Source of the DNA: Delftia tsuruhatensis NBRC 16741
GTDB lineage: Bacteria > Pseudomonadota > Gammaproteobacteria > Burkholderiales > Burkholderiaceae_C
NCBI RefSeq assembly: GCF_001571325.1
Contig: NZ_BCTO01000010.1
Span: 124,001 to 188,000 of the forward strand
DNA: 64,000 bases
Direction of reading: 5' to 3'
Position numbers and translations under genes: made by a program. The notes under the pieces are model-generated. The model did not search any database, was not told where the DNA came from, and saw nothing but the letters and a program-made list of their open reading frames with translations. This document shows positions 1 to 26,350 of this stretch, in pieces. The stretch's first letter is position 1; every line of letters starts with the position of its first letter.

Positions 1-1
1 G

Positions 2-2653: not shown

Positions 2654-2678
2654 TCCGAAGACTTCAAGGAGCCTTTCC

Positions 2679-3230
2679 ATGACACACCGCACTTCTTTTG
2701 CCTCCCGCCTTCGCGTGCTCACGGGTATGGCCCTTGTCGGCCTGCTGTCTGCCTGCTCGACCATCGACCGGGGCACGGCGCCCGCGCTGGAGACGAACGC
2801 CAGCTGGGCCGTGCTGCCCTTCGAGAACCACACCGAGACACCCATGGCCGGCAACCGCGCCGCCGCCATCGCCACGGCGCTGATCAATGCGCGCGGCGTG
2901 GGCCAGGTCAAGCGCTACACGGGCGATGCGCTGCAGGAGACGCTGTTCGACGGCCGCGACGCCAAGCGCCGCGAGGACGCCCTGGCCTGGGCGCGCGGCG
3001 AAGGCGTGCGCTATGCGCTGACGGGCGCGGTGGACGAATGGCGCTACAAGGTCGGAGTGGATGGCGAACCGGCCGTGGGCGTGACGCTGGAGATCGTGGA
3101 CGTGGGCACCGGCGCCACCGTGTGGAGCGGCGCGGGCGCGCAAAGCGGCTGGAGCCGCGAGGCCCTGGCCGCCGTGGGCCAGAAGCTGATCCGCAATCTG
3201 CTGGGCACGGGCCTGGCCAACGCCCGATAA
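2679..3230 (+). CDS. pelC: PelC, outer-membrane lipoprotein of Pel export
   Basis: This 183-residue protein begins with a lipoprotein signal peptide whose lipobox is LLSAC, giving lipidation at Cys26. The mature part starts with the PelC-type segment WAVLPFENHTETP and continues as a compact alpha/beta domain. In studied systems PelC forms a ring at the periplasmic face of the outer membrane and funnels cationic Pel into PelB. The start has a good Shine-Dalgarno (aaggagc) about 7 nt upstream. It lies between pelB and pelD, 22 bp before the latter, in one transcription unit. Confidence 0.9.
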   Translation: MTHRTSFASRLRVLTGMALVGLLSACSTIDRGTAPALETNASWAVLPFENHTETPMAGNRAAAIATALINARGVGQVKRYTGDALQETLFDGRDAKRREDALAWARGEGVRYALTGAVDEWRYKVGVDGEPAVGVTLEIVDVGTGATVWSGAGAQSGWSREALAAVGQKLIRNLLGTGLANAR

Positions 3231-3252
3231 GCGCATCGAGGAACGATTTTCC

Positions 3253-8573: not shown

Positions 8574-8612
8574 CCGGCAGGCATCTCTCGCCCTTTGCCG
8601 ATTTGCACGGTC

Positions 8613-8660
8613 TTGATCCAGCGTGTTGGCGGGGGGCGCCGGTCTGCGCGACAATACGGG
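8613..8660 (+). promoter_or_regulatory. Possible promoter before the amino-acid ABC transporter
   Basis: A TTGGCG at 8626 and a GACAAT at 8650 are 18 nt apart and would place a start about 120 nt before the binding-protein gene. No clear terminator was seen after pelG in this 208-bp gap. The call rests on consensus resemblance only. Confidence 0.3.
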
Positions 8661-8781
8661 ATTCGGCGCCGGCACCCAACCGAGACAAAGGTTCCGCCAA
8701 GGAACCATTCATTACAACGATTGCGCACCTTGCGTGCAGCGGCCGCCGCCTTTCGCTTTTTCCACTCCAAAGCTTTAAGCC

Positions 8782-9588
8782 ATGAAAAAACGCACCCTCT
8801 TGGCCATGGTGGCCCTGTCTGCACTGCTGGCAGCCTGCGGCAAGAACGAGTCCGCATCGACCGCCGCCGCGCCGGTTGCCGCCCCCGTGCCGGCAGCCAT
8901 GACCAAGTTGGTGATCGGCCTGGACGACAACTTCCCGCCCATGGGCTTTCGTGACGACAAGAACGAGATCGTCGGCTTCGACATCGACATGGCGCGTGAA
9001 GCCGCCAAGCGCATGAACGTGGAGGTGGACTTCAAGCCCATCGACTGGAGCGCTAAGGAGGCCGAGCTGGTCGGCAAGCGCGTCGACGCGCTGTGGAACG
9101 GCCTGACCATCACCGAAGAGCGCAAGAAGAACATCGCCTTCACCGCGCCCTACATGGAGAACCACCAGATCATCATCGTGCGCGCCGACTCCGACATCAA
9201 GGACAAGGCCGGCCTGGCCGGCAAGGTCGTGGGTGCACAGGATGGCAGCTCGGCCGTGGACGCCATCAAGAAGGACGCCGCCGTGGCCGCCAGCTTCAAG
9301 GACCTGAAGACCTTCGGCGACAACATCACCGCGCTGATGGACCTGTCGGCCGGCCGCCTGGACGCCGTCGTGGTCGACGAGGTCGTGGGGCGCTTCCACG
9401 TGGCCAAGAAGGCTGGCGAGTACCTGGTGCTCGAGGACAACTTCGGCACCGAGGACTACGGCGTGGGCCTGCGCAAGGAGGACACCGAAGTTCTGGGCAA
9501 GCTCGAAGCCGCGCTGGCCGAGATGAAGAAGGACGGCAAGGCCGCCGAAATCGCCTCCAAGTGGTTCGGCAAGGACATCATCAAGTAA
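8782..9588 (+). CDS. Amino-acid ABC transporter substrate-binding lipoprotein
   Basis: The 268-residue protein has a lipobox (SALLAAC, Cys19), a low-complexity Ala/Pro linker and a family 3 solute-binding fold. LDDNFPPMGF, GFDIDMA and the TITEERKKNIAFTAPYM segment are typical of cystine/glutamine/arginine-type binding proteins. It should capture a polar amino acid in the periplasm and deliver it to the permease and ATPase encoded next. The exact amino acid cannot be read from sequence. Confidence 0.88.
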   Translation: MKKRTLLAMVALSALLAACGKNESASTAAAPVAAPVPAAMTKLVIGLDDNFPPMGFRDDKNEIVGFDIDMAREAAKRMNVEVDFKPIDWSAKEAELVGKRVDALWNGLTITEERKKNIAFTAPYMENHQIIIVRADSDIKDKAGLAGKVVGAQDGSSAVDAIKKDAAVAASFKDLKTFGDNITALMDLSAGRLDAVVVDEVVGRFHVAKKAGEYLVLEDNFGTEDYGVGLRKEDTEVLGKLEAALAEMKKDGKAAEIASKWFGKDIIK

Positions 9589-9605
9589 ATCCGGCACACC
9601 ATGCG

Positions 9606-9639
9606 ACCGGCAAGGCCAGCCTGGCATTGCCGGTCTTTT
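9606..9639 (+). terminator. Leaky terminator or attenuator between binding protein and permease
   Basis: Eight-base arms ACCGGCAA and TTGCCGGT flank a short inner repeat and are followed by CTTTT. It lies 18 nt after the binding-protein stop and could lower expression of the permease and ATPase relative to the binding protein, which such importers often need. Confidence 0.6.
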
Positions 9640-9719
9640 GCGTTCTGGGACGCACGCGCCCGTGGCTGCCCGGATCCTGCCGATGCCGGCGGGGCCGCGC
9701 ACCGCACTGAGGCCATTCG

Positions 9720-10373
9720 ATGGAATATGTAATCTCGCTCATGGGGCCGCTGTCCGCCGGCGCCCTGGTCACCCTCAAGCTCTTCGTCATCACCCTGGCG
9801 CTGTCCATTCCCCTGGGACTGTCGCTGGCGCTGATGCGCATCTCCCGCTTTCCCGCCCTGAGCCGGCTGGTCGGCGGCTACATCTGGCTGATGCGCGGCA
9901 CGCCGCTGATGCTGCAGATGCTGTTCATCTACTTCGCGCTGCCCTTCGTGCCCGTGATCGGCGTGCGCCTGCCCGATTTCCCGGCCGCCGTGGTCGCCTT
10001 CGCGCTGAACTACGCCGCCTACTTCGCCGAAATCTTCCGCGCGGGCATCCAGTCCGTGGACCGCGGCCAGTACGAGGGCGCCAAGGTGCTGGGCATGAGC
10101 TACGGCCAGACCATGCGCCGCATCATCCTGCCGCAGATGTGGGCGCGCATCATCCCGCCCGTGAGCAACGAGACCATCACCCTGGTCAAGGACACCTCGC
10201 TGATCTACGTGCTGGCCCTGAACGATCTGCTGCGCGCGGCGCGCGGCATCGTGCAGCGCGATTTCACCATCACGCCCTTCGTGGTGGCCGCAGGCTTCTA
10301 TCTGGTCATGACTCTCGTGTTGACCTGGATCTTCCAATACCTAGAAAAACGCCATGCCAAATACGACGCGTGA
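9720..10373 (+). CDS. Amino-acid ABC transporter permease (HisM/GlnP type)
   Basis: The 217-residue protein has about five membrane spans and the polar amino-acid permease signature. The EAA loop is visible around [38 protein letters not shown] is the typical region of this family. It pairs with the preceding lipoprotein and with the ATPase whose start overlaps its 3' end. Confidence 0.92.
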
Positions 10374-11142
10374 TAACGCGCCCGAGACCATGATCTCGGC
10401 GCAGAACATCTGCAAGGGCTTTGGCGGCGTGCCGGTGCTGCGCGGCGTTTCGCTGGAGCTGGCGCGTGGCGAGGTGGTGGCCATCATCGGTCCCTCGGGA
10501 TCGGGCAAGAGCACCTTTTTGCGCTGCCTCAACCACCTGGAAACCATTGACAGCGGCCGTGTCGCCGTTGAAGGCGAAGTGCTGGTGGACAGTGGCGCCG
10601 ACGGCCGTGCCCACTACGTGCCCGAGGCGCAGATCCGCCAGATCGGCCGCAAGATGGGCATGGTGTTCCAGTCCTTCAACCTGTTCCCGCACCTCACGGT
10701 GCTGGAGAACGTCATCGAAGCGCCCATCATCGTCAAGGGCCTCAGGCGCGAGCAGATCGTGCCCAAGGCCGAGGCGCTGCTGCACAAGGTGGGCCTGCTG
10801 GAAAAGCGCGATGCCTATCCCAACCGTCTGTCGGGCGGGCAAAAGCAGCGCGTGGCCATTGCCCGGGCCCTGGCCATGGAGCCCGACATCCTGCTGTTCG
10901 ACGAGCCCACCTCCGCACTGGACCCCGAGCTGACCGGCGAGGTGCTGCGCACCATGCGCGAGCTGGCGCAGGAGCACATGACCATGCTGGTCGTGACCCA
11001 CGAGATGGGCTTTGCCCGTGAAGTGGCCAATCGCGTGATCTTCATGGACAAGGGGGAGATCGTCGAGCAAGGCCCTGCGGAAGCATTCTTTGCGGCGCCG
11101 CGGCACACACGGACCCAGGCATTCCTGCAGAACATGTTGTAA
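10354..11142 (+). CDS. Amino-acid ABC transporter ATP-binding protein (GlnQ/HisP type)
   Basis: This ATPase has Walker A ([12 protein letters not shown]), Q-loop, signature [14 protein letters not shown] and Walker [14 protein letters not shown], all in the expected order over 262 residues. It powers the importer encoded just upstream. The ATG at 10354 overlaps the permease gene by 20 bp; an in-frame ATG at 10390 (MISAQNIC) matches the usual family N-terminus and may be the real start. Confidence 0.93.
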
Positions 11143-11179
11143 AAAAACATCTGTCCAGTCCGGATTTTCCCCAGGTCCA

Positions 11180-11226
11180 GAGAGCGTGCAACGCTTGTGT
11201 AGCAAGCAAAGCATGCTCTTTTTTTT
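11180..11226 (+). terminator. Terminator after the amino-acid transporter
   Basis: A long two-part hairpin is present: outer arms GAGAGCGTGC and GCATGCTCTT (two G-U pairs) enclose inner arms GCTTG and CAAGC. Eight T residues follow. It closes the amino-acid transporter unit before the mla promoter region. Confidence 0.8.
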
Positions 11227-11254
11227 ATGGCGGTTTCTGCCATGACTTTTTGAG

Positions 11255-11276
11255 AAACATACACGGATGTATGTTT
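11255..11276. promoter_or_regulatory. Palindromic operator candidate upstream of the mla operon
   Basis: Perfect 9-bp arms AAACATACA and TGTATGTTT are separated by 4 nt and end 84 nt before the mlaF start. A TTGAGA overlapping its left edge (11250) could be a -35 element. The arms resemble operators of the AcrR/TtgR branch of TetR repressors. No T-tract follows, so it is not a terminator. No regulator gene lies next to it. Confidence 0.55.
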
Positions 11277-11360
11277 ATCTCGGTCGGTGGTGAGCAAGCA
11301 GCGGCACCTGTCTGCACAATAGCGGGCTTGCCTGCGAACATTTATCGACCGCACCACAGC

Positions 11361-12200
11361 ATGATCCCAACCGCCTCTTTCGTGGAGTTGCGCAACGTCA
11401 CCTTCGGCTATGGCGAGCGTGTGATCCTGCGCGACCTGTCGCTGCAGGTGCCGCGCGGCAAAGTCACGGCCCTGATGGGCGCATCGGGCGGGGGCAAGAC
11501 CACCGTGCTGCGCCTGATCGGCGGCCAGCAGCATGCCCAGCAGGGGCAGGTGCTGTTCGATGGCAAGGACGTCACCACCATGGACGCAGCGGGCCTGTAC
11601 GCTGCGCGCCGGCGCATGGGCATGCTGTTCCAGTTCGGCGCCCTGTTCACCGACATGAGCGTGTTCGACAACGTGGCCTTCCCGCTGCGCGAGCACACCG
11701 ACCTTCCCGACGAACTGGTCCGCGACATCGTGCTCATGAAGCTGCATGCCGTGGGTCTGCGCGGTGCGCGCGACCTCATGCCCAGCGAGATATCGGGCGG
11801 CATGGCCCGCCGCGTGGCGCTGGCGCGGGCCATTGCACTGGACCCCGAACTGGTCATGTACGACGAGCCCTTCGCCGGGCTGGACCCCATTTCCCTGGGC
11901 ACCGCTGCCCAACTGATCCGAGAACTCAACGACGCCATGGGCCTGACCTCCATCCTGGTGTCCCATGACGTGGAGGAAACCTTCCATGTGGCCGACCATG
12001 TGGTCATTCTGGGCAACGGCGGTGTCGCCGCCCAGGGCTCGCCCGAGGAAGTCAAGGCCAATCCCGATCCGCTGGTGCAGCAGTTCATCCACGCACGCGC
12101 CACCGGCCCCGTACCCTTCCATTACCCCGGCGTGAGTGCCGAAGAGGATTTCGGCACGCCTGAAAGCCCGGTCAAGGCCAACGGCCGGAGGCGCGCATGA
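11361..12200 (+). CDS. mlaF: MlaF, ATPase of the Mla phospholipid transporter
   Basis: The 279-residue ABC ATPase has Walker [13 protein letters not shown], signature [14 protein letters not shown] and Walker [12 protein letters not shown]. The phenylalanine-rich [19 protein letters not shown] segment is typical of MlaF. With MlaE, MlaD and MlaB it forms the inner-membrane complex that moves phospholipid to or from the periplasmic carrier MlaC and maintains outer-membrane lipid asymmetry. Upstream in-frame starts would run through the promoter palindrome, so ATG 11361 was chosen. It overlaps mlaE by 4 bp. Confidence 0.93.
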
Positions 12201-12979
12201 ACCGGCTGCATCCCGCTCGCATCGGCGCGGCAGTGCGCCACCAATTGACCCAGCTGGGCATGGGCACCCGCCTGTTCGGCCGCCTGCTCGCGCTGATGGG
12301 GCCGGCGCTGGGCAGGCCGCGGCTGATTGGCGACCAGATCCATTTCCTGGGCAACTATTCGCTGGCCATCATCGGCGTGTCCGGCCTGTTCGTCGGTTTC
12401 GTGCTGGGCCTGCAGGGCTACTACACCCTGCAGCGCTACGGCTCGGCCGAGGCGCTGGGTCTGCTGGTGGCGCTGTCCCTGGTGCGCGAGCTCGGCCCCG
12501 TCGTCACGGCGCTGCTGTTTGCCGGCCGTGCCGGCACGGCGCTGACGGCCGAGATCGGCCTCATGAAGGCCGGCGAGCAGTTGTCGGCCATGGAAATGAT
12601 GGCCGTGGACCCCGTGCGCCGCATCCTGGCGCCGCGCTTCGTGGCCGGCCTGATCGCCATGCCGCTGCTGGCCGCTGTCTTCAGCGCCGTCGGCGTGATC
12701 GGCGGCTGGCTGGTGGGCGTGGTCATGATCGGCGTCGATGGCGGTGCCTTCTGGGGCCAGATGCAAAACGGCGTGGACTGGTGGTATGACCTGGGCAACG
12801 GCGTTCTCAAGAGCCTGGTGTTCGGCGTGGCGGTGACCTTCATCGCGCTGCTGCAGGGCTATGCAGCCAAGCCCACGCCCGAAGGCGTGTCCCGCGCGAC
12901 CACGCGCACGGTGGTGATGGCCTCGCTGGCCGTGCTGGGGCTGGACTTCCTGCTCACGGCCACGATGTTCAGCCTTTGA
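12197..12979 (+). CDS. mlaE: MlaE, permease of the Mla phospholipid transporter
   Basis: The 260-residue MlaE/YrbE-family permease has about five to six membrane spans. Conserved family stretches include [37 protein letters not shown] and [17 protein letters not shown]. It starts in an ATGA overlap with mlaF and precedes mlaD by 43 bp. Confidence 0.95.
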
Positions 12980-13022
12980 CCCGGCACCGAAGCCACCCCC
13001 GCAAAACAAGGAAAAACAAACC

Positions 13023-13508
13023 ATGCAGCAATCCAAGAGTGATGTCTGGGTCGGACTGTTCGTGCTGATCGGCGCTGCGGCGCTGGTGTTCCTGGCGCTG
13101 CAGTCGGCCAACCTGCTGAGCCTGAGCTTCCAGAAAACCTACACGCTGACCGCGCGCTTCGACAACATCGGCGGACTCAAGCCCAAGGCGGCCGTGCGCA
13201 GCGCGGGCGTCGTCGTGGGCCGCGTGGAATCCATCACCTTCGACGATCAGGTCTTTCAGGCCAGCGTGACCATGGCCATGGAAAACCGCTACGCGTTTCC
13301 CAAGGACAGTTCCCTGAAGATCCTGACCAGCGGCCTGCTCGGCGACCAGTACATCGGCATCGAAGCCGGCGCAGATGACCACAACCTCAAGGATGGCGAC
13401 CGCGTCGTCGCAACCCAGTCGGCCGTTGTGCTGGAAAATCTGATCGGACAGTTCCTCTACGGCAAGGCCGAGCAGGGTGGCAGCTCCGGTGCAGGAGGCA
13501 AAGAATGA
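13023..13508 (+). CDS. mlaD: MlaD, MCE-domain lipid-binding subunit
   Basis: The 161-residue protein has one N-terminal membrane span (residues ~8-28) and then one MCE domain, seen in TARFDNIGGLKPKAAVRSAG and the LLGDQYIGIEAG segment. MlaD forms a hexameric ring on MlaE in the periplasm. Its stop overlaps the mlaA start in an ATGA arrangement. Confidence 0.94.
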   Translation: MQQSKSDVWVGLFVLIGAAALVFLALQSANLLSLSFQKTYTLTARFDNIGGLKPKAAVRSAGVVVGRVESITFDDQVFQASVTMAMENRYAFPKDSSLKILTSGLLGDQYIGIEAGADDHNLKDGDRVVATQSAVVLENLIGQFLYGKAEQGGSSGAGGKE

Positions 13509-14305
13509 CAACCAACCATGAACAGGCGACCGCGGGTCGCCCTGCAGTCCAGGCAGCATCCTGGCAGCGCGCAGCCATGCTGGGCACATTGGCCGCCGCT
13601 TCGCTGCTCGCCGGCTGCGCCACCGCGCCGGGCGAGGCCCGCAATCCCCAGGACCCGTTCGAGCCGTTCAACCGCAGCGTCTACTCGTTCAACGACGGCC
13701 TGGACCGTGCCGTCCTGAAGCCGGTGGCCACGGCCTACCGCGACGTCACTCCGCGTCTGGCCCGCGATGGCGTGAGCAATTTCTTCTCCAACCTCAGCGA
13801 TGTCTGGTCCTTCGTGAACAACGCGCTGCAGGGCCAGGCCGAAGGCGCCTACAACTCCGTCGTGCGGTTCTCGGTGAATACGGTCTTCGGCCTGGGCGGC
13901 TTGCTCGACATCGCCAGCGAGGCCGGCATCGAGCGCCAAAAGCAGGACTTCGGCCAGACCCTGGGTCGCTGGGGCGTGCCCACCGGGCCGTACCTGGTGC
14001 TGCCGCTGCTGGGCCCGTCCACGGTGCGTGACACTGCGGCTCTTCCGGTGGATGCCTGGGGCAACCCCATGTCGGCGATCAACGACATCCCGGTGCGCAA
14101 CAGCCTGTATGTGCTGCGACTGGTGGATACACGTGCCCGCCTGCTCAATGCCTCCGACACGCTGGACTCCGTCGCGCTCGACCGCTACAGCCTGACGCGC
14201 GATGTCTACCTGAACCTGCGGCGTGGCAAGTCGGGTGATGACGGTCGCATCGAGGATTACGACGACGATGCCGGCAAGCTGCCGCCCGAAGACGGCGCGA
14301 AGTAA
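13505..14305 (+). CDS. mlaA: MlaA/VacJ, outer-membrane lipoprotein of the Mla system
   Basis: The 266-residue protein has a lipoprotein signal with lipobox LLAGC (Cys38) and the VacJ hallmark DPFEPFNRSVYSFNDGLD. It sits in the outer membrane and removes misplaced surface phospholipid, passing it to MlaC. In E. coli mlaA is unlinked; here it is inside the mla operon between mlaD and mlaC, as is common in beta-proteobacteria. Confidence 0.93.
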   Translation: MTTNHEQATAGRPAVQAASWQRAAMLGTLAAASLLAGCATAPGEARNPQDPFEPFNRSVYSFNDGLDRAVLKPVATAYRDVTPRLARDGVSNFFSNLSDVWSFVNNALQGQAEGAYNSVVRFSVNTVFGLGGLLDIASEAGIERQKQDFGQTLGRWGVPTGPYLVLPLLGPSTVRDTAALPVDAWGNPMSAINDIPVRNSLYVLRLVDTRARLLNASDTLDSVALDRYSLTRDVYLNLRRGKSGDDGRIEDYDDDAGKLPPEDGAK

Positions 14306-14333
14306 GCAGTTCGTAACATCCCGAGATGAAAAA

Positions 14334-14360
14334 CGGCCGCTGCCTGACATGGCGCGGCCG
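14334..14360 (+). other. Hairpin between mlaA and mlaC
   Basis: Seven-base arms CGGCCGC and GCGGCCG are separated by 13 nt, with no T-tract after them. It may stabilise or separate transcript segments rather than end transcription. Confidence 0.4.
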
Positions 14361-14420
14361 GAAAAATGTGCAATATCAACCCGGTCCGGGGCATGAGGCC
14401 CTGCTGGGAAAGGAAGAGTG

Positions 14421-15062
14421 ATGATCAATCGACGTGCCTGGAGCGCTGCCGCTGCAGCCATGCTGGCCATGGGAACCCTTGGCGCGGCACTACCGGCCCG
14501 CGCAGCCGGCGAGACCCCCGATGCGCTGATCAAGCGTGTCTCCACCGACGTGCTGGAAACCATCAAGAAGGACCCCTCGCTGCGCGAGGGCGATGTCTCC
14601 AAGGTCAATGCGCTGGTCAATGACAAGGTCATGCCGTATGTGAATTTCCGCCGCATGACCTCCGCCTCGGTGGGGCCGGCCTGGCGCCAGGCCACGCCTG
14701 CGCAGCGCGAGAAGCTGGAGACCGAGTTCAAGGCCCTGCTGATCCGCACCTATTCGGGCGCGCTGACGCAGGTCAGCAACCAGACCATCAACGTCAAGCC
14801 CCTGCGCGCGGCAGCCGGCGACACCGATGTGCTGGTGCGCACCGAAGTGCTGGGCCGCGGCGAGCCCGTGCAGCTGGACTACCGGCTCGAGAAGTCCGGC
14901 GACGGCTGGAAGATCTACAACCTGAACGTGCTGGGCGTGTGGCTGGTGGAAACCTACCGCAACCAGTTCAGCCAGGAAATCAATGCCCGCGGCATCGACG
15001 GCCTGATCGAGACCCTGGCCACGCGCAGCAAGATGCCGGCCACGCCGCCCTCCAAGGGCTGA
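14421..15062 (+). CDS. mlaC: MlaC, periplasmic phospholipid carrier
   Basis: The 213-residue protein has a Sec signal peptide ending near ALPARAAGE and then the Tol-Tol-associated MlaC fold (MPYVNFRRMT, YRLEKSGDGWKIYNLNVLGVWLVETYRNQF). It shuttles phospholipid between MlaA in the outer membrane and MlaFEDB. The ATG at 14421 lies about 5 nt after an aaggaag ribosome site; a GTG three bases earlier is too close to that site. Confidence 0.92.
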   Translation: MINRRAWSAAAAAMLAMGTLGAALPARAAGETPDALIKRVSTDVLETIKKDPSLREGDVSKVNALVNDKVMPYVNFRRMTSASVGPAWRQATPAQREKLETEFKALLIRTYSGALTQVSNQTINVKPLRAAAGDTDVLVRTEVLGRGEPVQLDYRLEKSGDGWKIYNLNVLGVWLVETYRNQFSQEINARGIDGLIETLATRSKMPATPPSKG

Positions 15063-15082
15063 CAGCCGCGGACGCACGCGCC

Positions 15083-15370
15083 ATGCTGCAGCTCCCCCGT
15101 GAACTGACCTACCGCCAGGCGCGCAGCTGTCTCGTGCAGCTGCGGCCCCAGGTGCAGGCCTTCGACGGCGCCCAGGTGCGTGTCGATGCCAGCGGTGTCG
15201 AGGTCTTCGACTCGTCCGCACTGGCCGTGCTGCTGGCCTGCCGCCGCACCGCGAAGGCGGCAGACAAGCAATTGGTGGTCGTGGGCCTGCCGCAGGGCCT
15301 GCAGTCCATGGCGGCGCTGTATGGCGTCGACGGGCTGCTGGCCGACATGGCCGCATCCTCCCCCTCCTGA
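15083..15370 (+). CDS. mlaB: MlaB, STAS-domain subunit of the Mla complex
   Basis: The 95-residue STAS-domain protein contains VDASGVEVFDSSALAVLLAC, which carries the conserved Asp-Ser region of the fold. MlaB binds MlaF and is needed for complex stability and activity. It follows mlaC by 20 bp. The start was placed at ATG 15083, which gives a normal STAS length. Confidence 0.85.
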   Translation: MLQLPRELTYRQARSCLVQLRPQVQAFDGAQVRVDASGVEVFDSSALAVLLACRRTAKAADKQLVVVGLPQGLQSMAALYGVDGLLADMAASSPS

Positions 15371-15443
15371 GCCGGCGCAGCGCGCCGCTGCAAAGAGCCC
15401 TGCAAGGCAGGTTTGGCTGCAAGGGCCTAGAATCGCGCCTCGC

Positions 15444-16373
15444 ATGTCTGCCGTCTCATTCCAATCCATCTCCAAGACCTACCAGACCCCCAAGGGGGCC
15501 TTCCAGGCGCTCAACCACGTGAGTCTGGACATCGAGGAGGGCGAGTTCTTCGGCCTGCTCGGTCCCAATGGCGCTGGCAAGACCACGATGATCAGCATCC
15601 TGGCCGGCCTGTCGCGCGCCACCAGCGGCCGCGTGCTGGTCCAGGGCAGCGACGTGCATGCCGACTACTCGGCTGCCCGGCGCAAGCTGGGCATCGTGCC
15701 GCAGGAGCTGGTCTTCGATCCCTTCTTCAATGTGCGCGAGGCGCTGCGCTTTCAGTCCGGCTATTTCGGCGTCAGGAACAATGACGACTGGATCGACGAG
15801 CTGCTGCACAGCCTGGGGCTGACCGACAAGGCCAATTCCAACATGCGCCAGCTGTCCGGCGGCATGAAGCGCCGCGTGCTGGTGGCCCAGGCGCTGGTGC
15901 ACAAGCCGCCCATCATCGTGCTCGACGAGCCCACGGCCGGCGTGGACGTGGAGCTGCGCCAGACGCTGTGGCACTTCATCGCACGCCTGAACCGCGAAGG
16001 CCATACCGTGCTGCTCACCACCCACTACCTGGAAGAGGCCGAGGCGCTGTGCAGCCGCGTGGCCATGCTCAAGCAGGGCAACATCGTCAAGCTCTCGACC
16101 ATGTCGGATCTGCTCAAGTCCGCCTCCTCCAACGTGCTGCAGTTCAAGACCGATACCGCCTTGCCGCCGGCCCTGGCCGCGCGTGCGCGGGTGACCGGCC
16201 GCATCGTGCAGATACCCGCCAACGACGCCAGCGATGTGGAGCGCCTGCTCGCCGCGCTGCGCGAGGGCTCCGTTGTGCCCGAGGACGTGGAAATCCGCCG
16301 CGCCGATCTGGAGGATGTCTTCATCCATGTGATGAATGAGCAGGGACAGACTTCGCAGGGAGCTTCGGCATGA
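15444..16373 (+). CDS. ABC-2 type exporter ATP-binding protein (YadG-like)
   Basis: The 309-residue ATPase has Walker A GPNGAGKTTM, signature LSGGMKRRVLVAQA and Walker B IIVLDEPTAGVD, plus a C-terminal extension typical of the drug/capsule exporter class. It is coupled to the next gene by an ATGA overlap and forms a two-gene exporter of unknown substrate. A TAGAAT sits only 10 nt before the ATG at 15444. Position after mlaB is conserved in relatives, but a role with Mla is not shown. Confidence 0.87.
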   Translation: MSAVSFQSISKTYQTPKGAFQALNHVSLDIEEGEFFGLLGPNGAGKTTMISILAGLSRATSGRVLVQGSDVHADYSAARRKLGIVPQELVFDPFFNVREALRFQSGYFGVRNNDDWIDELLHSLGLTDKANSNMRQLSGGMKRRVLVAQALVHKPPIIVLDEPTAGVDVELRQTLWHFIARLNREGHTVLLTTHYLEEAEALCSRVAMLKQGNIVKLSTMSDLLKSASSNVLQFKTDTALPPALAARARVTGRIVQIPANDASDVERLLAALREGSVVPEDVEIRRADLEDVFIHVMNEQGQTSQGASA

Positions 16374-17125
16374 ACGGCTGGCAGACTCTGCTCAAGAAGG
16401 AAGTGCTGCGTTTCTGGAAGGTCAGCTTCCAGACCGTGGCCGCACCCGTGCTCACGGCCGTGCTCTATCTGCTGATCTTCGGCCATGTGCTCGAAGGCCG
16501 GGTGCTGGTGTACGACCGCATCAGCTACACGGCCTTCCTGATCCCTGGCCTGGTGATGATGAGCGTGCTGCAGAACGCCTTCGCCAACAGCTCCTCCAGC
16601 CTGGTACAGAGCAAGATCATGGGCTCCATGGTCTTCGTGCTGCTCACGCCGCTGTCGCACTGGGCCTGGTTCGGGGCCTATGTGGGAGCGTCGGTGCTGC
16701 GCGGGCTGCTGGTGGGCGCGGGCGTGTTCGTCGTCACGCTGTACTTTGCCATTCCCGAATTCACGGCGCCGCTGTGGATTCTGGTCTTCGGCCTGCTGGG
16801 CGCGGCGCTGCTGGGCACGCTGGGCGTGATCGCCGGCCTGTGGGCGGACAAGTTCGACCAGATGGCGGCCTTCCAGAACTTCCTGATCATGCCCATGACC
16901 TTCCTGTCAGGCGTGTTCTATTCCATCCAGTCGCTGCCGCCTTTTTGGCAAAAAGTCAGCCATCTGAACCCGTTTTTCTACATGATCGACGGCTTCCGCT
17001 ATGGCTTCTTCGGCCAGAGCGACGTGTCGCCCTGGGTCAGCCTGGCCATCGTCGGCTCGGCCTGGCTGGCGGTGAGTGCCCTGGCCGTGCACCTGCTGCG
17101 CATCGGCTACAAGATCCGCGGCTGA
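16370..17125 (+). CDS. ABC-2 type exporter permease (YadH-like)
   Basis: The 251-residue protein has about six membrane spans and an ABC-2 permease pattern. The region MPMTFLSGVFYSIQSLPPFW is the characteristic conserved segment near the C-terminal half. It partners the ATPase encoded immediately upstream. Substrate is unknown. Confidence 0.87.
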   Translation: MNGWQTLLKKEVLRFWKVSFQTVAAPVLTAVLYLLIFGHVLEGRVLVYDRISYTAFLIPGLVMMSVLQNAFANSSSSLVQSKIMGSMVFVLLTPLSHWAWFGAYVGASVLRGLLVGAGVFVVTLYFAIPEFTAPLWILVFGLLGAALLGTLGVIAGLWADKFDQMAAFQNFLIMPMTFLSGVFYSIQSLPPFWQKVSHLNPFFYMIDGFRYGFFGQSDVSPWVSLAIVGSAWLAVSALAVHLLRIGYKIRG

Positions 17126-17251
17126 GGTTTTTTCACAGGCTGCGGCGGGCGCTGTGCCGGCATTTTCGAACCCACCCATGAACAGGCGGCCGGCGCCCGG
17201 CGCCGCCGCCAACCAAGGCCATGCCGCGATGCATGGCAGGAAAGCTTCCCC

Positions 17252-17500
17252 ATGACTGCAGACCAACTCAAGGAACTGATCGCCACCGGCCTGCCTTGCG
17301 AACACATTGCGCTGGAAGGCGACGGACGGCACTGGTTTGCCACCATCGTCTCGGCCCAATTCGAGGGCCAGCGCCTGCTGCAGCGCCAGCGCCTGGTCTA
17401 CGCCACGCTGGGCCAGCGCATGCATACCGACGAGGTCCATGCGCTGTCCATGAAGACCTACACGCCCGCCGAGTGGGCTGCCCAGGCCGGCCAGGCCTGA
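17252..17500 (+). CDS. BolA/IbaG-family protein
   Basis: The 82-residue protein has the BolA fold: an N-terminal helix ([14 protein letters not shown]), the beta hairpin around [22 protein letters not shown] and the helix [12 protein letters not shown], followed by [18 protein letters not shown]. BolA-type proteins work with monothiol glutaredoxins in iron-sulfur handling; a CGFS glutaredoxin is encoded at 58.6-58.9 kb. The place before murA matches IbaG (YrbA) in E. coli. An aggaaag ribosome site precedes the ATG. Confidence 0.88.
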
Positions 17501-17604
17501 GCGCACAGCCCGGTCACGACGCCTCAGACTTTCTGCCGCAACTGGTCGATACGGCCCGTGCGGCATCTCCTTTTTCCCGATTTCCAGATTCAAGTCTGTC
17601 AGCC

Positions 17605-18869
<1,265 letters not shown>

Positions 18870-18873
<4 letters not shown>

Positions 18874-19514
18874 CCATCACGATTGCCCTGTCCAAGGGCC
18901 GCATCTACGACGAAACCGTGCCGCTGCTGGCCGCTGCCGGCATCTCGGTCACCGAAGACATTGAAAAGTCGCGCAAGCTGATCTTCGAGACCAACCAGAG
19001 CCACGTGCGCGTGGTGCTGGTGCGCGCCTCCGACGTGCCGGTCTACGTGCAGTACGGCGGCGCCGACCTCGGCGTGGCCGGCCTGGACTCCCTGATCGAG
19101 CATGGTGCCCAGGGCCTGTACCAGCCCCTGGACCTGAAGATCGCGCGCTGCCGCGTCAGCGTCGCCGTGCGCAACGGCTTCGACTACGCGCTGGCCGTCA
19201 AGCAGGGCGCCCGCCTGCGCATCGCCACCAAGTATCCCGAGATCGCGCGCAACTTCTTCGCCACCAAGGGCGTGCACGTGGACATGGTCAAGCTCTACGG
19301 CTCCATGGAACTGGCCCCGCTGACCGGCATGGCCGACGCCATCGTCGACCTGGTGTCCACCGGCAACACGCTCAGGGCCAATGACCTGGTCGAGGTCGAG
19401 CCCATCATGGAGATCAGCTCGCGCCTGGTGGTCAACCAGGCCTCGCTCAAGCTCAAGCAGGCCCCTCTGCGCAAGATCATCGATGCCTTCGCATCGGCCA
19501 TTCCCCAAGACTGA
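18870..19514 (+). CDS. hisG: HisG, short-form ATP phosphoribosyltransferase catalytic subunit
   Basis: HisG condenses ATP with PRPP, the first step of histidine synthesis. At 214 residues it is the short form without the C-terminal regulatory domain, which requires HisZ as partner; no hisZ is in the window. Conserved features are [15 protein letters not shown] at the N-terminus and the PRPP loop [16 protein letters not shown]. The ATG overlaps the murA stop. Confidence 0.96.
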
Positions 19515-19527
19515 AGCCCTCTGCACC

Positions 19528-20844
19528 ATGGAATACCAAGCCGCTCCCGCCCGCCTGTCCACGCTTGACGCCAACTTCGAACACGATTTTGCGCAGCGCC
19601 TGCATTGGTCGGCGGACACGGACGCGGCCATCGAGCAGCGCGTGGCCGACATCCTGGCCGATGTGCAAAAGCGTGGCGATGCGGCCGTGCTGGAGTACAC
19701 GGCGCGCTTCGACGGATTGCAGGCGGACGGCATGGCAGCGCTGGAGCTGACGCAGGCCGAGCTCAAGGCCGCCTTCGACAGCCTGGGCGACGAGCAGCGC
19801 GATGCGCTGACGGCCGCCGCCCAGCGCGTGCGCACCTACCACGAGGCCCAAAAGCGCGCCAGCGGCGAGAGCTGGAGCTACCGCGACGCCGATGGCACCC
19901 TGCTGGGCCAGAAGGTCACGCCGCTGGACCGCGTGGGCATCTATGTGCCCGGCGGCAAGGCCGCCTATCCGTCCAGCGTGCTGATGAATGCCATTCCCGC
20001 CCATGTGGCTGGCGTGCAGGAAATCATCATGGTCGTGCCCACGCCGCGCGGCGAGAAGAATGCCCTGGTGCTGGCGGCCGCCTATGTGGCGGGCGTCACG
20101 CGCGGCTTCACCATCGGCGGTGCCCAGGCTGTGGCGGCCCTGGCCTACGGCACGGCCACCATCCCCAAGGTGGACAAGATCACCGGCCCCGGCAATGCCT
20201 ATGTGGCCAGCGCCAAGAAGCGGGTGTTCGGCACCGTGGGCATCGACATGATTGCCGGCCCCAGTGAAATCCTGGTGCTGGCCGACGGCAGCACGCCGCC
20301 CGACTGGGTGGCCATGGACCTGTTCAGCCAGGCAGAGCATGACGAGCTGGCGCAAAGCATCCTGCTGTGCCCCGATGCCGACTACATCGCCGCCGTCCAG
20401 CGCGAGATCGACCGCCTGCTGCCCGAGATGCCGCGACGCGCCATCATCGCCAAGAGCCTGAGCGACCGGGGTGCCCTCATCCTCACGCGCGACATGCAGG
20501 AGGCCTGCGCCATCAGCAACCGCATCGCGCCAGAGCACCTGGAAGTCTCCAGCAACGATCCCCACCAGTGGGAGCCGCTGCTGCGCCATGCAGGCGCCAT
20601 CTTCCTGGGGGCCTACACCAGCGAAAGCCTGGGCGACTACTGTGCCGGCCCCAACCATGTGCTGCCCACCAGCGGCACGGCGCGCTTTTCCTCGCCGCTG
20701 GGGGTCTATGACTTCCAGAAACGATCCAGCCTCATCGAGGTCAGCGAGCAGGGCGCCCAGACCCTGGGCCGCATCGCCTCGGTGCTGGCGCATGGCGAAG
20801 GCCTGCAAGGCCATGCGCGCGCGGCCGAAATGCGCCTGAAGTAG
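19528..20844 (+). CDS. hisD: HisD, histidinol dehydrogenase
   Basis: HisD carries out the last two oxidations, from histidinol to histidine, using NAD and zinc. The 438-residue protein has [14 protein letters not shown], the NAD-site stretch [14 protein letters not shown], the [10 protein letters not shown] motif, [10 protein letters not shown] with a zinc/catalytic region, and RIAPEHLEV with the catalytic Glu-His pair. It follows hisG by 13 bp. A terminator-like hairpin lies 25 bp after its stop. Confidence 0.97.
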
Positions 20845-20868
20845 ACACTCGCTTCCTATTGGACGAAG

Positions 20869-20898
20869 GCGCCGTCACCGAAAGGGGCGGCGCTTTTT
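20869..20898 (+). terminator. Terminator after hisD
   Basis: Eight-base arms GCGCCGTC and GGCGGCGC (one G-U pair) are separated by 9 nt and followed by five Ts. It splits hisD from the inserted toxin-antitoxin-like pair and from hisC onward. Confidence 0.72.
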
Positions 20899-20934
20899 GC
20901 TGCCTGAAGGCTAGAGCAAGTATGTCAAGAATCG

Positions 20935-20965
20935 ACACGAAATCAGTGGAGCACGAATTTCGTGT
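20935..20965. promoter_or_regulatory. Operator candidate for the toxin-antitoxin pair
   Basis: A 9-bp inverted repeat, ACACGAAAT at 20935 and ATTTCGTGT at 20957, overlaps a second palindrome, CACGAATTTCGTG, at 20952-20964. Together these give three CACGAA-type half-sites ahead of the GTG start at 20979. Ribbon-helix-helix antitoxins commonly repress their own genes through such repeated sites. Confidence 0.55.
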
Positions 20966-20978
20966 AGACTTGCACCCT

Positions 20979-21227
20979 GTGAAGAACCTCACCATCACCG
21001 TCGAAGACAGCGTGCTCGAATGGGCCCGCATCGAGGCCGCGCGCCGCGGCACCAGCGTCTCGCGCATGGTGGGCGACTTCATGGCCGAGATGCAGCGCCG
21101 CGAGGACGCCTACGAGCGCGCCTACCTGGCCTGGCGCACCGACGAGCGCGGCTGGGACGGCGGCCAGCCGTCATCCACGCAGCCCGCCCAGCGCAGTGCC
21201 GCGCTGCGCCGCGAGGGCCAGGCATGA
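20979..21227 (+). CDS. Ribbon-helix-helix-type antitoxin candidate
   Basis: The 82-residue product starts with a beta strand (VKNLTITVEDSVLEWARIEA) followed by RRGTSVSRMVGDFMAEM, the strand-helix-helix pattern of CopG/Arc-type regulators. The C-terminal half is charged and would wrap around the toxin. The GTG start keeps the operator repeats upstream; an ATG at 20922 would add 19 residues and put them inside the gene. No good ribosome site precedes the GTG. Its stop overlaps the PIN gene start (ATGA), as toxin-antitoxin pairs usually do. Confidence 0.7.
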   Translation: MKNLTITVEDSVLEWARIEAARRGTSVSRMVGDFMAEMQRREDAYERAYLAWRTDERGWDGGQPSSTQPAQRSAALRREGQA

Positions 21228-21661
21228 ACACCGTCTTCGTCGATACCTCCGTGCTGGTCGCTGCCGAAGACACGGGGCAGGGCGCCTTGCATGCCGCCGT
21301 GCTGCAGTGGCTGGACCTGCTGTGGCGCACGCGCAGCGGGCGCACCGGCAGTCAGTCGCTGTGCGAGTTCTATGAACAGGTCACCACGGCCGCCCAGCCT
21401 TTGCCGCAGGGCGATGCGCGCGCCGCCATCCGCCGCTACCAGACCTGGACGCCCTGGAAGACCGATGCCGCCACGCTGGAGACCGCCTGGGCCGTGCAAT
21501 CGCGCCACCAGCTGGCCTTTGGCGACTGCCTGGCCGTGGCCTGCGCCCAGCACAGCGGCTGCGAGCAGATGCTGACCCTGCACCTGCCGCACGGCGCCCA
21601 GTTCGGCGGCGTCGCCATGGTGCACCCGCTGCACCAGGTGCCGCCGCAGCAGCAGGCCTGA
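21224..21661 (+). CDS. PIN-domain toxin-like protein (VapC-like)
   Basis: The 145-residue protein has a PIN fold: Asp7 in VFVDTSVLV, Glu48 in SLCEFYEQV and Asp101 in FGDCLAVACA match three metal-binding acidic positions of VapC ribonucleases. The fourth acidic position, normally in an SED-like motif, reads TLHLPHG, with His120 where Asp is expected. The protein may therefore have altered or lost nuclease activity. It is translationally coupled to the antitoxin candidate and lies between hisD and hisC, which is unrelated to its likely role. Confidence 0.75.
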   Translation: MNTVFVDTSVLVAAEDTGQGALHAAVLQWLDLLWRTRSGRTGSQSLCEFYEQVTTAAQPLPQGDARAAIRRYQTWTPWKTDAATLETAWAVQSRHQLAFGDCLAVACAQHSGCEQMLTLHLPHGAQFGGVAMVHPLHQVPPQQQA

Positions 21662-21714
21662 GCGGCTTCGCTGATGGATTTCTTCCCCCACTGACTCGTG
21701 AAAGTGTGCATGCC

Positions 21715-22839
21715 ATGACAGCTTCCATTCCGCAGGTTCAGGCCCTGGCCCTGGAGCGCATCCGCGCCGATGTCCGCTCCATGCATGCCTACCATGTGCA
21801 GCCCTCGCAAGGCCTGCTCAAGATGGACACGATGGAGAACCCCTTCCGACTGCCACCCGAGCTGCAGGCCGCGCTGGGCGAGCGCCTGGGCCGGCTGGAG
21901 ATCAACCGCTACCCTGGCGAGCGCCAGGAAGTGCTTAAGGACATGCTGGCCCGCTACGCGCAGGCGCCGGCCGGCAGCGCCGTACTGCTGGGCAATGGCT
22001 CGGACGAGATCATCACGCTGCTGGCCCTGGCTTGTGCCCAGCCCCACGCCGAGGGCCGCGCCACCATGCTGGCGCCCATGCCGGGCTTCGTCATGTATCC
22101 CATGAGCGCCAGGCTGCAGGGCCTGGACTTTGTGGGGGTCGACCTGACGGCCGACTTCGAGCTGGACGTGCCCGCCATGCGCGCCGCCATTGCCGAGCAC
22201 CGCCCCGCCATCACCTATATCGCCTATCCCAACAATCCCACGGCCACGCTCTGGGCCGAGGCCGATGTGCAGGCCGTGATCGACGCGGTCGGCGCCATCG
22301 GCGGCCTGGTCGTCATGGACGAGGCCTACCAGCCCTTCGCCCGCCGCAGCTGGGCAGAGAACATGCGCGCCGACCCGGCCCGCAACGCCCATGTGCTGCT
22401 GATGCGCACGCTCAGCAAGTTCGGCCTGGCCGGTGCGCGCCTGGGCTACCTGATCGGCCCGGCCGCCATCGTCGGCGAGATCGACAAGGTGCGCCCGCCC
22501 TACAACATCAGCGTGCTCAACTGCGAGACGGCCATCTTCGCGCTGGAGCACGAGGCGCTGTATGCGCAGCAGGCCGTGGCCATCCGCGCCGAGCGCCAGC
22601 CGCTGATCGACGCGCTGACCGCGCTGCCGGGTGTGGAAAAGATCTGGCCATCCGAGGCCAACATGGTCTTGCTGCGCGTGCGCGATGCCGCGCGTGCCCA
22701 GGCCGAGATGAAGGCCCGGGGCGTGCTGGTGAAGAACGTCAGTGCCATGCACCCGCTGCTGGCCAATTGCCTGCGCCTGACCGTGGGCACCCACGAAGAA
22801 AACGCCCAGATGCTGGCGGCCCTGAAGGAATCCCTATGA
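21715..22839 (+). CDS. hisC: HisC, histidinol-phosphate aminotransferase
   Basis: This PLP enzyme converts imidazole acetol phosphate and glutamate to histidinol phosphate. The 374-residue protein has the PLP lysine in [28 protein letters not shown] in the cofactor pocket and [11 protein letters not shown] with the PLP-contacting Asp. GTG 21706 is a possible alternative start three codons earlier. Its stop overlaps hisB (ATGA). The promoter is probably that of the toxin-antitoxin unit or lies in the 53-bp gap before it. Confidence 0.95.
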
Positions 22840-23441
22840 GCAATGCAGTCCCCGCACGCACCGCCGAAGTGCAGCGCAACACCGCCGAGACCCGGATCAA
22901 GGTCGCCATCAACCTGGACGGCACGGGCAAGGCCAGCCTGCACTCGGGCATCGGCTTTCTGGATCACATGCTCGACCAGATCGCGCGCCACGGCCTGATC
23001 GACCTGGACATCGAGTGCGAGGGCGACCTGCACATCGACGGCCACCACACGGTGGAGGACATCGGCATCACCCTGGGCCAGGCCTTCGCCAAGGCCGTGG
23101 GCGACAAGAAGGGCATCCGCCGCTACGGCCACGCCTATGTGCCGCTGGACGAGGCCCTGAGCCGCGTGGTCATCGATTTCTCGGGCCGTCCCGGGCTGCA
23201 CATGGACGTGAAATTCACGGCCGGCAGCATCGGCCAGCTCGACACCCAGCTGGTCTACGAATTCTTCCAGGGCTTCGTCAACCATGCGGGCGTGACCCTG
23301 CACATCGACAACCTCAAGGGCTTCAATGCCCACCACCAGTGCGAGACCATCTTCAAGGCCTTCGCACGCGCCCTGCGCTTTGCGCTGGAGCATGACGAGC
23401 GCATGGCCGGCGTCATCCCCTCGACCAAGGGCGCTCTGTAA
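22836..23441 (+). CDS. hisB: HisB, imidazoleglycerol-phosphate dehydratase
   Basis: The 201-residue monofunctional dehydratase removes water from imidazole glycerol phosphate. Manganese-ligand motifs are [23 protein letters not shown] and [18 protein letters not shown]. The histidinol-phosphatase domain of the enterobacterial HisB is absent, so the phosphatase must be encoded elsewhere. Confidence 0.96.
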
Positions 23442-23522
23442 AGAGAAGCGATTGGCATCGGCCAGAACTTGATCTGACCGGGCAATCCCGCCGAAAATCC
23501 GACAGAACACGCGCCACACGCT

Positions 23523-24191
23523 ATGAGTTTGACTGACAACACCGTCGCCGTCGTCGATTACGGCATGGGCAATCTGCGCTCGGTTTCACAGGCCGTGCGC
23601 ACGGCCGCCGCCGATTCCGGCTGGCAGGTCGTTGTGACCTCCGATCCCGAGGTGGTCCTGGCCGCCGACCGCGTCGTGCTGCCGGGCCAGGGCGCCATGC
23701 CCGACTGCATGCGCGAGCTGCGCGAATCCGGCCTGCAGGAAGCCGTGCTGCATGCCGCTGCCAACAAGCCCCTGTTCGGCGTCTGCGTGGGCATGCAGAT
23801 GCTGCTGGACCACAGCGACGAAGGTGACGTGCCCGGCCTGGGCCTCATCCCCGGCAACGTGCGCAAGTTCGATCTGGCGGGCCGCACCCAGGCCGATGGC
23901 AGCCGCTTCAAGGTTCCGCAGATGGGCTGGAACCGCGTGCACCAGACGCACAACGCCGGCCATGCCCACCCGCTGTGGCGTGGAATTCCCGAAGACAGCT
24001 TCTACTACTTCGTGCACAGTTTCTATGCCGTGGTGCAGCAGCCGCAGCATTGCGCTGCTCAGGCCGACTACGGCGGGCGCTTTGCCTGCGCCATCGCGCG
24101 CGATAATATTTTCGCCACGCAGTTTCACCCCGAAAAAAGCGCTGACCAGGGACTGGCCCTGTTCCGCAACTTTCTGGGCTGGAAGCCCTGA
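23523..24191 (+). CDS. hisH: HisH, glutamine amidotransferase subunit of IGP synthase
   Basis: HisH releases ammonia from glutamine and channels it to HisF. The 222-residue class I amidotransferase has the nucleophile cysteine in [14 protein letters not shown] and the His-Glu pair in [10 protein letters not shown]. It normally works only with HisF, whose gene is missing from this window. An 81-bp gap separates it from hisB. Confidence 0.96.
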
Positions 24192-24252
24192 ATCCCCTTT
24201 TCTTCCCCGCACCGGCCGCTGAATCCCAGGCCTTCATTGCTCGCAAACCATC

Positions 24253-24993
24253 ATGCTGCTCATTCCTGCCATCGACCTCAAGGACGGCCACTGCGTACGC
24301 CTCATCCAGGGTGATATGGACCAGTCGACCACGTTCGGCGAAGACCCGGCCATCATCGCCCGCCGCTGGCTCGACGCCGGCGCGCGCCGCCTGCACCTGG
24401 TGGACCTCAATGGCGCGTTTGCGGGCCAGCCCAAGAACCTTGCGGCCATCAAGGCCATCCTCAAAGAGGTGGACGGCCGGATTCCGGTGCAGCTCGGCGG
24501 AGGCATCCGCGATCTGGACACCATCGAGAAATACATAGATGCCGGCATCAGCTACGTGATCATCGGCACCGCTGCCGTGAAGAACCCCGGCTTTCTGCAG
24601 GATGCCTGCAGCGCCTTCGGCGGCCATGTGATCGTCGGGCTCGACGCCAAGGACGGCAAGGTCGCCATCGACGGCTGGAGCAAGCTCACGGGCCAGGACG
24701 TGCATTCGGTGGCCAAGCGCTTCGAGGACTGGGGCGTGGAGTCCATCATCTACACCGACATCGGCCGCGACGGCATGCTCACGGGCATCAACATCGATGC
24801 CACCGTCAATCTTGCCCAATCGCTGAAGATCCCCGTCATCGCCTCGGGTGGCCTGGCGGGCATGGCCGACATCGAGGCGCTGTGCAAGGTCGAGGACGAA
24901 GGCATCGAGGGCGTGATCTGCGGTCGCGCCATCTACTCGGGCGATCTCGACTTCGCCGCAGCGCAGGCTCGCGCCGACGAACTCACGGCCTGA
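24253..24993 (+). CDS. hisA: HisA, ProFAR isomerase
   Basis: HisA opens the phosphoribosyl ring of ProFAR by an Amadori rearrangement. The 246-residue TIM barrel has the catalytic Asp in [10 protein letters not shown] and the second Asp in [10 protein letters not shown], plus phosphate loops QLGGGIR and ASGGLAG. It is distinguished from HisF by the N-terminal MLLIPAIDL. It is the last his gene here; hisF would normally follow directly. Confidence 0.95.
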
Positions 24994-25017
24994 GCGGCCT
25001 GCGCCTTCTCGATATTC

Positions 25018-25046
25018 GCGGGCGCCTGTCCCTGACAGGCGCCCGC
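25018..25046. other. Perfect hairpin between hisA and the convergent lipoprotein gene
   Basis: Thirteen-base arms beginning GCGGGCGCC are separated by only 3 nt. No T-tract follows on either strand, so it is not a classic terminator, but it sits where two convergent transcripts would meet and may still end or stabilise them. Confidence 0.55.
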
Positions 25047-25078
25047 GCTGCATTCAGCGCCGGGGTTTCAAGCGGCCG

Positions 25079-26350
25079 CTACGAGCAGGCGGGAAGGGCT
25101 TGCCCGGCATTGGTGGCGCGCACGGTCTGCACAAAGGCATCCCAGTAATTCGGCAGCCCGGCCCAGGGGTTGCCCACGCCGGTGCTGGGCTCGAACTCCA
25201 GCTGGGTCACATAGATCCATCCCGCCTGGTAGCGTGCCGAGGCGGCCGACTGCACAGCCGTCTGCATGGCCGCGCAGCCCGACACGTTGTGCACCAGCGA
25301 GGCCTGGTGGCTATTGGCCAGCCCGTACAGCCAATCGAAACTGGTCGTGCGCGGATCGTAGGTGGCGTACGTGGAGCCCTTGCCCTCGAACGTGGTCAGC
25401 ACATCGGCCACATCGGCATAACCGGCCACGGGCACGAGGCCTGGGTTGCCGATCACGATCAGGTCGGGATTCTTGGCCTTGATGTACTGGTAGATGCTGC
25501 GGTAGAAGTCCAGCCGGTTGGTGGTGGCCGCCATCTCGTCAATGAAGAAGCCCTTGACCAGGCCTGCGCCGTAGTGCGTGAAATAGTTGTCGATATTGGC
25601 CTGGATGCTTGCCAGCGATCGCGTGCCCGTGCCATAGCTGGAGCTCACATAGCCCACCAACTGCCCGCCCGCGTTGGCAAAAGCGGTTGCGGCGCGCATG
25701 ATGTTCGCATCCGGGCCACTGAAAATGCCGTTGGCCGGGTTCAGGATGGCCGTCATCTGCACGGTCGGATTCGCCTGGGCGCTGGCTGCCAGCGCATTCC
25801 AGGCCGTGGCCCCCGCGCCCGTGGGATAGAAATACGCAGGCACCAGCACCCGCAGCGGCGCAGGAGCCGGGCGCAGATAGAAGGTCTGCGAAGCGCTGCC
25901 CGTGCGGCTTCCCACGGTGGCGCTGGCCTGCACCTGCTGGCGGCCCGGCGTGGCGCCGGTCAGGGAGGCAGTTGCCACGCCGGAGCTGGTCAGCGCCGAG
26001 GTGCTGACGCCTGTGGCTGCGCTGAAGCTCACCACGGTTCCATCGGCGGCATTCACGCCATCTGCGAGAACACCTGCGCGCAGGGTCAGTGCCGAGCCTG
26101 CAGTCACCACATCCCTGGCGGCCGGGGCCGTCCATTGCACGGTGACCGAGGTCACTCCGGGCTGGCCGGTGCCGCCGCCATCGCCCCCGGTGCCGCCGCC
26201 AGCGCTGCTGTCACCACCACCGCCTCCGCCGCAGGAAGCCAAGGAGGCGGCCAGGGCGAGCATGCCGAGTCGCAGGACAAGAGGAGAGGGAGCGTGGGAG
26301 CGTTGCATGACAGAGGAAGGCTGGGCGGGGGAAAGGCTATATTCAAGCAT
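25079..26350 (-). CDS. Spherulin-4/GH135-like lipoprotein with Ig-like domain
   Basis: The 423-residue product has a lipobox LASC (Cys40), a Gly-rich linker (41-64), an Ig-like bacterial domain (~65-160, VTAGSALTLRAGV) and a spherulin-4 TIM-barrel domain (~165-423). Barrel motifs are VLVPAYFYP, ILNPANGIFSGP, GYVSSSYGTG, GFFIDE (Asp271/Glu272), GNPG (Asn302) and TFEGKG (Glu322). Family GH135 enzymes such as fungal Sph3 cut alpha-1,4-N-acetylgalactosamine polymers; activity here is inferred. ATG 26350 has an aaggaag site about 11 nt upstream; ATG 26308 gives a shorter, more typical lipoprotein signal. The gene stands where hisF is expected. Confidence 0.8.
   Translation of the reverse strand: MLEYSLSPAQPSSVMQRSHAPSPLVLRLGMLALAASLASCGGGGGGDSSAGGGTGGDGGGTGQPGVTSVTVQWTAPAARDVVTAGSALTLRAGVLADGVNAADGTVVSFSAATGVSTSALTSSGVATASLTGATPGRQQVQASATVGSRTGSASQTFYLRPAPAPLRVLVPAYFYPTGAGATAWNALAASAQANPTVQMTAILNPANGIFSGPDANIMRAATAFANAGGQLVGYVSSSYGTGTRSLASIQANIDNYFTHYGAGLVKGFFIDEMAATTNRLDFYRSIYQYIKAKNPDLIVIGNPGLVPVAGYADVADVLTTFEGKGSTYATYDPRTTSFDWLYGLANSHQASLVHNVSGCAAMQTAVQSAASARYQAGWIYVTQLEFEPSTGVGNPWAGLPNYWDAFVQTVRATNAGQALPACS

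Follow-up and report, generated by a model that had tools for sequence, protein, structure and literature searches.

Sph3 is a membrane-bound enzyme of the fungus Aspergillus and the founder of glycoside hydrolase family GH135 (PDB 5c5g and 5d6t). Its gene lies in a cluster for an alpha-1,4-linked GalNAc-containing polymer, galactosaminogalactan (GAG), and spherulin-4 genes are also found in some actinobacterial agd3 operons (PMC7229062), i.e., bacterial operons whose product is thought to resemble GAG or Pel. Sph3 acts specifically on acetylated poly-GalNAc: it degrades re-N-acetylated Pel and yields no product with native P. aeruginosa Pel (PMC9135694). It is reported to leave P. aeruginosa Pel biofilms undisrupted and to disrupt the GalNAc-rich Pel aggregates of S. 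intermedius (PMC12345266). The alpha-1,4-N-acetylgalactosaminidase of the Pel system itself is the hydrolase of P. aeruginosa PelA (GH166), likewise a TIM barrel. PelA deacetylates the polymer in the periplasm ahead of export (PMC12022489). Separate glycoside hydrolases adjoin the pel operons of B. cereus (PelAH, BCE_5582) and S. intermedius (SIR_1591), and loss of PelAH leads to excess biofilm (PMC7112168).

A Spherulin4/GH135 lipoprotein gene was analyzed in a 64,000-nucleotide stretch of Delftia tsuruhatensis NBRC 16741 (the window; Table 1). The Delftia protein has the same family, fold and catalytic acids as Sph3, with about 24% identity over the barrel, but it also has a bacterial lipobox and an Ig-like domain, which Sph3 lacks. 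The PelA hydrolase belongs to another GH family and is fused to a deacetylase, whereas Delftia has both PelA, with GH166 intact, and the GH135 protein. Like BCE_5582 and SIR_1591, the GH135 genes of Delftia relatives adjoin pel operons. However, BCE_5582 resembles the PelA hydrolase domain, and neither protein is described as GH135 in the parts of PMC7112168 and PMC12345266 drawn on here; by the same sources, their hosts are Gram-positive with a PelA that has no hydrolase domain, whereas the Delftia PelA keeps one. The actinobacterial spherulin-4 genes occur in agd3-type operons, whereas the relatives studied here are Gram-negative and have the gene after pelG in a complete pelABCDEFG operon. 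Searches of the open-licence literature found GH135 reported in no pelABCDEFG operon and no activity data for a bacterial GH135 protein, and the main text of PMC7112194 mentions neither spherulin nor GH135.

Table 1. Features of the Delftia locus, in window positions
Feature	Position	Strand	Basis or remark
pelB-pelG, Pel operon	1..8573	+	Pfam PelB barrel, PelD_GGDEF, DUF3492/GT4, PelG
Inverted segment, ~17.7 kb (amino-acid ABC transporter, mla, murA, his, GH135)	8574..26350	.	Gene-order comparison
hisA	24253..24993	+	Convergent neighbour of the GH135 gene in Delftia and most linked genomes
Sph3-like (Spherulin4/GH135) lipoprotein gene	25079..26350	-	ORF, Pfam and PDB matches; alternative start 26308
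Spherulin4/GH135 TIM-barrel domain, residues 167-410 (D271, E272, N302-P303-G304, E322)	25121..25852	-	PF12138, Sph3 fold
Ig-like beta-sandwich domain, about residues 66-160	25871..26155	-	AF2, fold matches, weak Big matches
Lipoprotein signal peptide and lipobox (..LAASLASC, predicted lipidated Cys40)	26231..26308	-	From the alternative start; sequence and relatives

The GH135 gene and its protein

With its stop, the GH135 ORF is 424 codons long. Translation from an in-frame ATG at 26308 yields a more typical signal peptide (MQRSHAPSPLVLRLGMLALAASLASC), and this ATG is clear of a divergent epimerase-like gene, a possible start of which overlaps the ATG at 26350; the true start may therefore be at 26308. 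The bases CATG at window positions 26348-26351 are common to both ATGs, and therefore at least one of the two true starts is probably elsewhere. No sigma-70-like site was found in the searched region upstream of the Delftia gene. The host genome has a single Spherulin4 gene, and D. acidovorans NBRC 14950 has the same protein at 96% identity. Besides Delftia, the related-loci search matched a single, distant relative in Streptomyces. Comparison of the Delftia copies with Delftia relatives indicated purifying selection (dN/dS 0.10-0.25).

The predicted lipobox is LASC with Gly at +2, followed by a Gly-rich linker, and a matching lipobox is present in the pelG-linked relatives; by sequence, the protein has the signal peptide, lipobox and Cys of a bacterial lipoprotein. 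Lipoproteins with Gly at +2 after the lipobox are sorted to the outer membrane by the Lol rule. The protein is thus predicted to be anchored in the outer membrane. An earlier note on this DNA had called it a surface lipoprotein, of which the lipobox and the predicted anchoring are kept, whereas the lipobox and Gly +2 do not say which face of the membrane it occupies.

The barrel domain was recognized by PF12138 over the full profile (positions 1-239 of 239; protein residues 167-410; E=1.3e-49; 169.4 bits against a cut-off of 30.2), and the solved Sph3 structures matched the protein at E about 3e-17 in the PDB sequence search. The NCBIfam search of the protein gave no match. The motifs D271-E272, N302-P303-G304 and F321-E322, read by the earlier note from the letters as spherulin-4 motifs, are all present with the right numbering. 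They align with the Sph3 equivalents and are near-invariant across 48 sequences, and E322 aligns with Sph3 Glu222, which was named catalytic (PMC12054363). The alignments show that the protein belongs to Spherulin4/GH135, with its catalytic acids intact. No PelA chain was found among its PDB sequence matches at E up to 1, i.e., it was not placed in GH166.

The structure overlay on Sph3 that the note had suggested was consistent with this assignment. AF2 modelled the whole protein with modest confidence (overall pLDDT 62.6), and the best VIA match of this model is Sph3 5c5g (Z 18.1, rmsd 3.6 over 231 aligned residues). Plain Foldseek placed multidomain sugar hydrolases first, with poor rmsd, and the second look by VIA ranked Sph3 first. 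A fold without an acidic groove, which the note would have counted against the assignment, is a weak refuter because the Sph3 groove itself is less charged than those of its cousins (PMC12054363).

The Ig-like domain was modelled alone by AF2 with a pLDDT of 79.8 and eight strands, and the solved structures nearest to this model are Ig/FnIII-type domains (Z about 10). Its Pfam matches are below the Big cut-offs, i.e., Big_3_5 at 18.0 bits against 35.5 and Big_1 at 15.9 against 34.9. The note was right to place the domain in front of the catalytic domain but not to regard it as a novelty of this gene, as 22 of the 26 pelG-linked relatives have it. The domain would probably be a spacer that holds the barrel away from the membrane.

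Linkage to pelG, inheritance and the Delftia inversion

The pel genes that the earlier note had seen in this genome were confirmed. The genes pelB-G are at 74-8573, with pelC assigned by a weak LpoB match and position and pelE by position, and pelA is found just outside the window, on its upstream side (L043:1521-4340). Delftia PelA matches the full-length solved PelA 9cgy at E=9e-190 and the GH166 domain structure 5tcb at E=3e-44, and the deacetylase region is kept. The D/E sites of PelA GH166 are intact in Delftia and in those linked genomes in which this region was covered. The GH135 protein would therefore be a second hydrolase, i.e., an addition and not a replacement. The same sites led to the rejection of a reading in which GH135 takes over from a defective PelA hydrolase.

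The sample from the host's family numbered 401 genomes, of which 46 have Spherulin4 and 54 have PelG above the cut-off. In 20 genomes of six genera, 26 Spherulin4 genes lie on the same strand within 2 kb downstream of pelG, and the gap between the pelG stop and the first GH135 copy is 26-138 bp where measurable. The co-occurrence with pel that the earlier note expected was clear within this family, both by genome (both 35, GH135 only 11, PelG only 19, neither 336; odds ratio 56, Fisher p=5e-27) and by genus (12, 8, 10 and 111 in the same order; odds ratio 16.7, p=5.6e-7). It probably reflects mostly one recruitment followed by vertical descent, and the genome-level p-value therefore overstates independence. 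Outside the family, the Pel-GH135 link fails: in the class-wide sample, Spherulin4 was found in three genomes, none of them with PelG, and 22 genomes had PelG without Spherulin4.

The PelG tree has one clade (support 98/99) with the 20 linked genomes, three genomes of the genus Delftia and one further genome (G142). All 24 carry a GH135 gene, i.e., the gene was inherited together with the pel genes. The linked label needs three changes on this tree. In the first GH135 tree, the linked genes form a clade (100/99) with Delftia GH135 nested inside it, and the two trees agree. By these trees, GH135 was probably recruited to pel once and later retained.

The residues D-E-NPG-E are kept in 26/26 linked genes and in the Delftia gene. 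In an unlinked side branch, both glutamates are lost in five of eight genes. Three of these five are in genomes without PelG (G086, G188 and G227), and the other two (G296b and G357c) are in genomes that also have a linked copy. From their residues, the members that lost both glutamates are apparent pseudoenzymes. The homologues in PelG-less genomes are mostly of other subtypes, without lipobox or Ig-like domain.

In Delftia, the GH135 gene is 16.5 kb from pelG and on the other strand; it is at present outside the pel operon, whereas the gene is inside it in 20 relatives. Gene order was compared in G191, G285, G089, G226, G296 and G220. The order in most linked genomes is pelA-G> GH135> <hisA <hisH <hisB <hisC, and <hisD, <hisG, <murA, <mla genes and <ABC-transporter genes follow further out in G191, G285, G089 and G226, except that hisG was not detected in G191. 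The Delftia order is the mirror image, i.e., pelG> ABC> mla> murA> his> hisA> <GH135. This comparison shows that one inversion of ~17.7 kb, one end of which lies between pelG and GH135, split the gene from the operon; the same event explains why the gene is distant from pelG and on the other strand. The inversion is also present in G220, a genome from the window's genus. Another genome of the genus, G129, has an uninverted pel-his junction with no GH135 gene there. Inverted repeats were searched at the inversion ends, and only 8-base matches at chance level were found.

The epimerase-like gene beside Delftia GH135 departs from what a single inversion alone would give: in some genomes, hisA is separated from pelG or GH135 by a distant relative of this gene, which, at 38-41% identity, may be a different gene.

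Proposed role and rival readings

The analysis makes it rather probable that the gene once stood eighth in the pel operon and encodes an outer-membrane-anchored GH135 endo-alpha-1,4-N-acetylgalactosaminidase that would cut acetylated stretches of Pel. A Pel-processing role as such is likely, judged from sequence and gene order. The central idea of the earlier note, i.e., a Sph3-type hydrolase acting on Pel, gained from the pelG linkage, the single inversion, the matching trees and the co-occurrence, and its details on substrate, membrane face and Ig-like domain were changed.

Because Sph3 is specific for the acetylated polymer and PelA deacetylates in the periplasm, the likeliest substrate would be acetylated nascent Pel at the periplasmic side of the outer membrane. 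Most likely, the enzyme would act in the periplasm, close to the PelB/PelC exit path, where cutting of poly-GalNAc before its deacetylation would set chain length or clear stalled polymer. Fungal Sph3 was proposed to sit beside the synthase Gtb3 and prevent clogging (PMC12054363). The GH166 domain of PelA would handle partly deacetylated Pel. A wider and tentative proposal, which we hold at somewhat under even chances, is that Pel hydrolysis in the host's family has two families and two stages, with PelA (GH166) on the partly deacetylated polymer and outer-membrane GH135 on the nascent acetylated one. This arrangement would mirror the fungal Sph3/Ega3 pair, with the Delftia copy freed from operon control by the inversion. 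The regulation of Delftia GH135 could have changed after it left the operon.

The earlier note had the lipoprotein trim or disperse Pel. Trimming or dispersal of the extracellular Pel matrix by a surface-exposed enzyme, in a role akin to that of B. cereus PelAH, would agree with the lipoprotein anchor and the pel linkage, and biofilm is limited by accessory hydrolases encoded next to pel loci elsewhere (PMC7112168, PMC12345266). It would work if Pel here is GalNAc-rich as in S. intermedius, where by the latter source Sph3 disrupts the aggregates. However, native, largely deacetylated P. aeruginosa Pel is not cut by Sph3 (PMC9135694), and the deacetylase region is retained in Delftia PelA. We consider this reading rather unlikely: the link to Pel is kept, whereas dispersal of mature Pel is not supported, as Sph3 is inactive on native P. 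aeruginosa Pel (PMC9135694, PMC12345266).

GH135 is known for cutting fungal GAG, and the 11 sampled genomes with Spherulin4 and no PelG indicate that some family members act without pel. The target could thus be the polymer of another organism, e.g., fungal galactosaminogalactan, in competition, feeding or defence. The pel-type branch, however, sits in the pel operon and is inherited with it, the catalytic glutamates are mostly lost in the unlinked branch, pel-less genomes included, and the other PelG-less homologues mostly differ in subtype, lipobox and Ig-like domain, which makes a foreign target quite improbable for the Delftia protein. It is very improbable that the protein is a barrel-fold lipoprotein that binds Pel without catalysis. 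Binding-only forms do seem to exist, because the unlinked branch without both glutamates keeps the fold motifs, but D271, E272 and E322 are kept in Delftia and in every linked gene (26/26), and the Delftia copies are under purifying selection.

These findings bear on the question of why hydrolases are carried in exopolysaccharide operons. In a pel operon with a Sph3-type enzyme and an intact PelA hydrolase, the two activities are genetically separable. The GH135-pel link tightens the parallel between the bacterial Pel and fungal galactosaminogalactan machineries, and it points to bacteria as a possible source of enzymes that act on acetylated Pel. Natural variants are offered by the tandem copies, the inactive branch and the copy moved out of the operon.

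Tandem and other gene copies

Tandem pairs of GH135 lipoprotein genes, both catalytically intact by their residues, were found 3' of pelG in L045, L052, L053, L058, L059 and L060. In the unlinked pel-type Spherulin4 branch, the changes in L067, L072, L132, L138 and L140 are E272 to G and E322 to A, T or S. The Spherulin4 lipoprotein gene of G129 (L063 8097-9017) is far from pel, has no Ig-like domain and adjoins an M48 peptidase gene. In G305, a divergent Spherulin4-type gene (L079 3894-4712) lies on the opposite strand, ~11 kb from pelG and close to the start of the divergent pel operon (L079 8883-17102).
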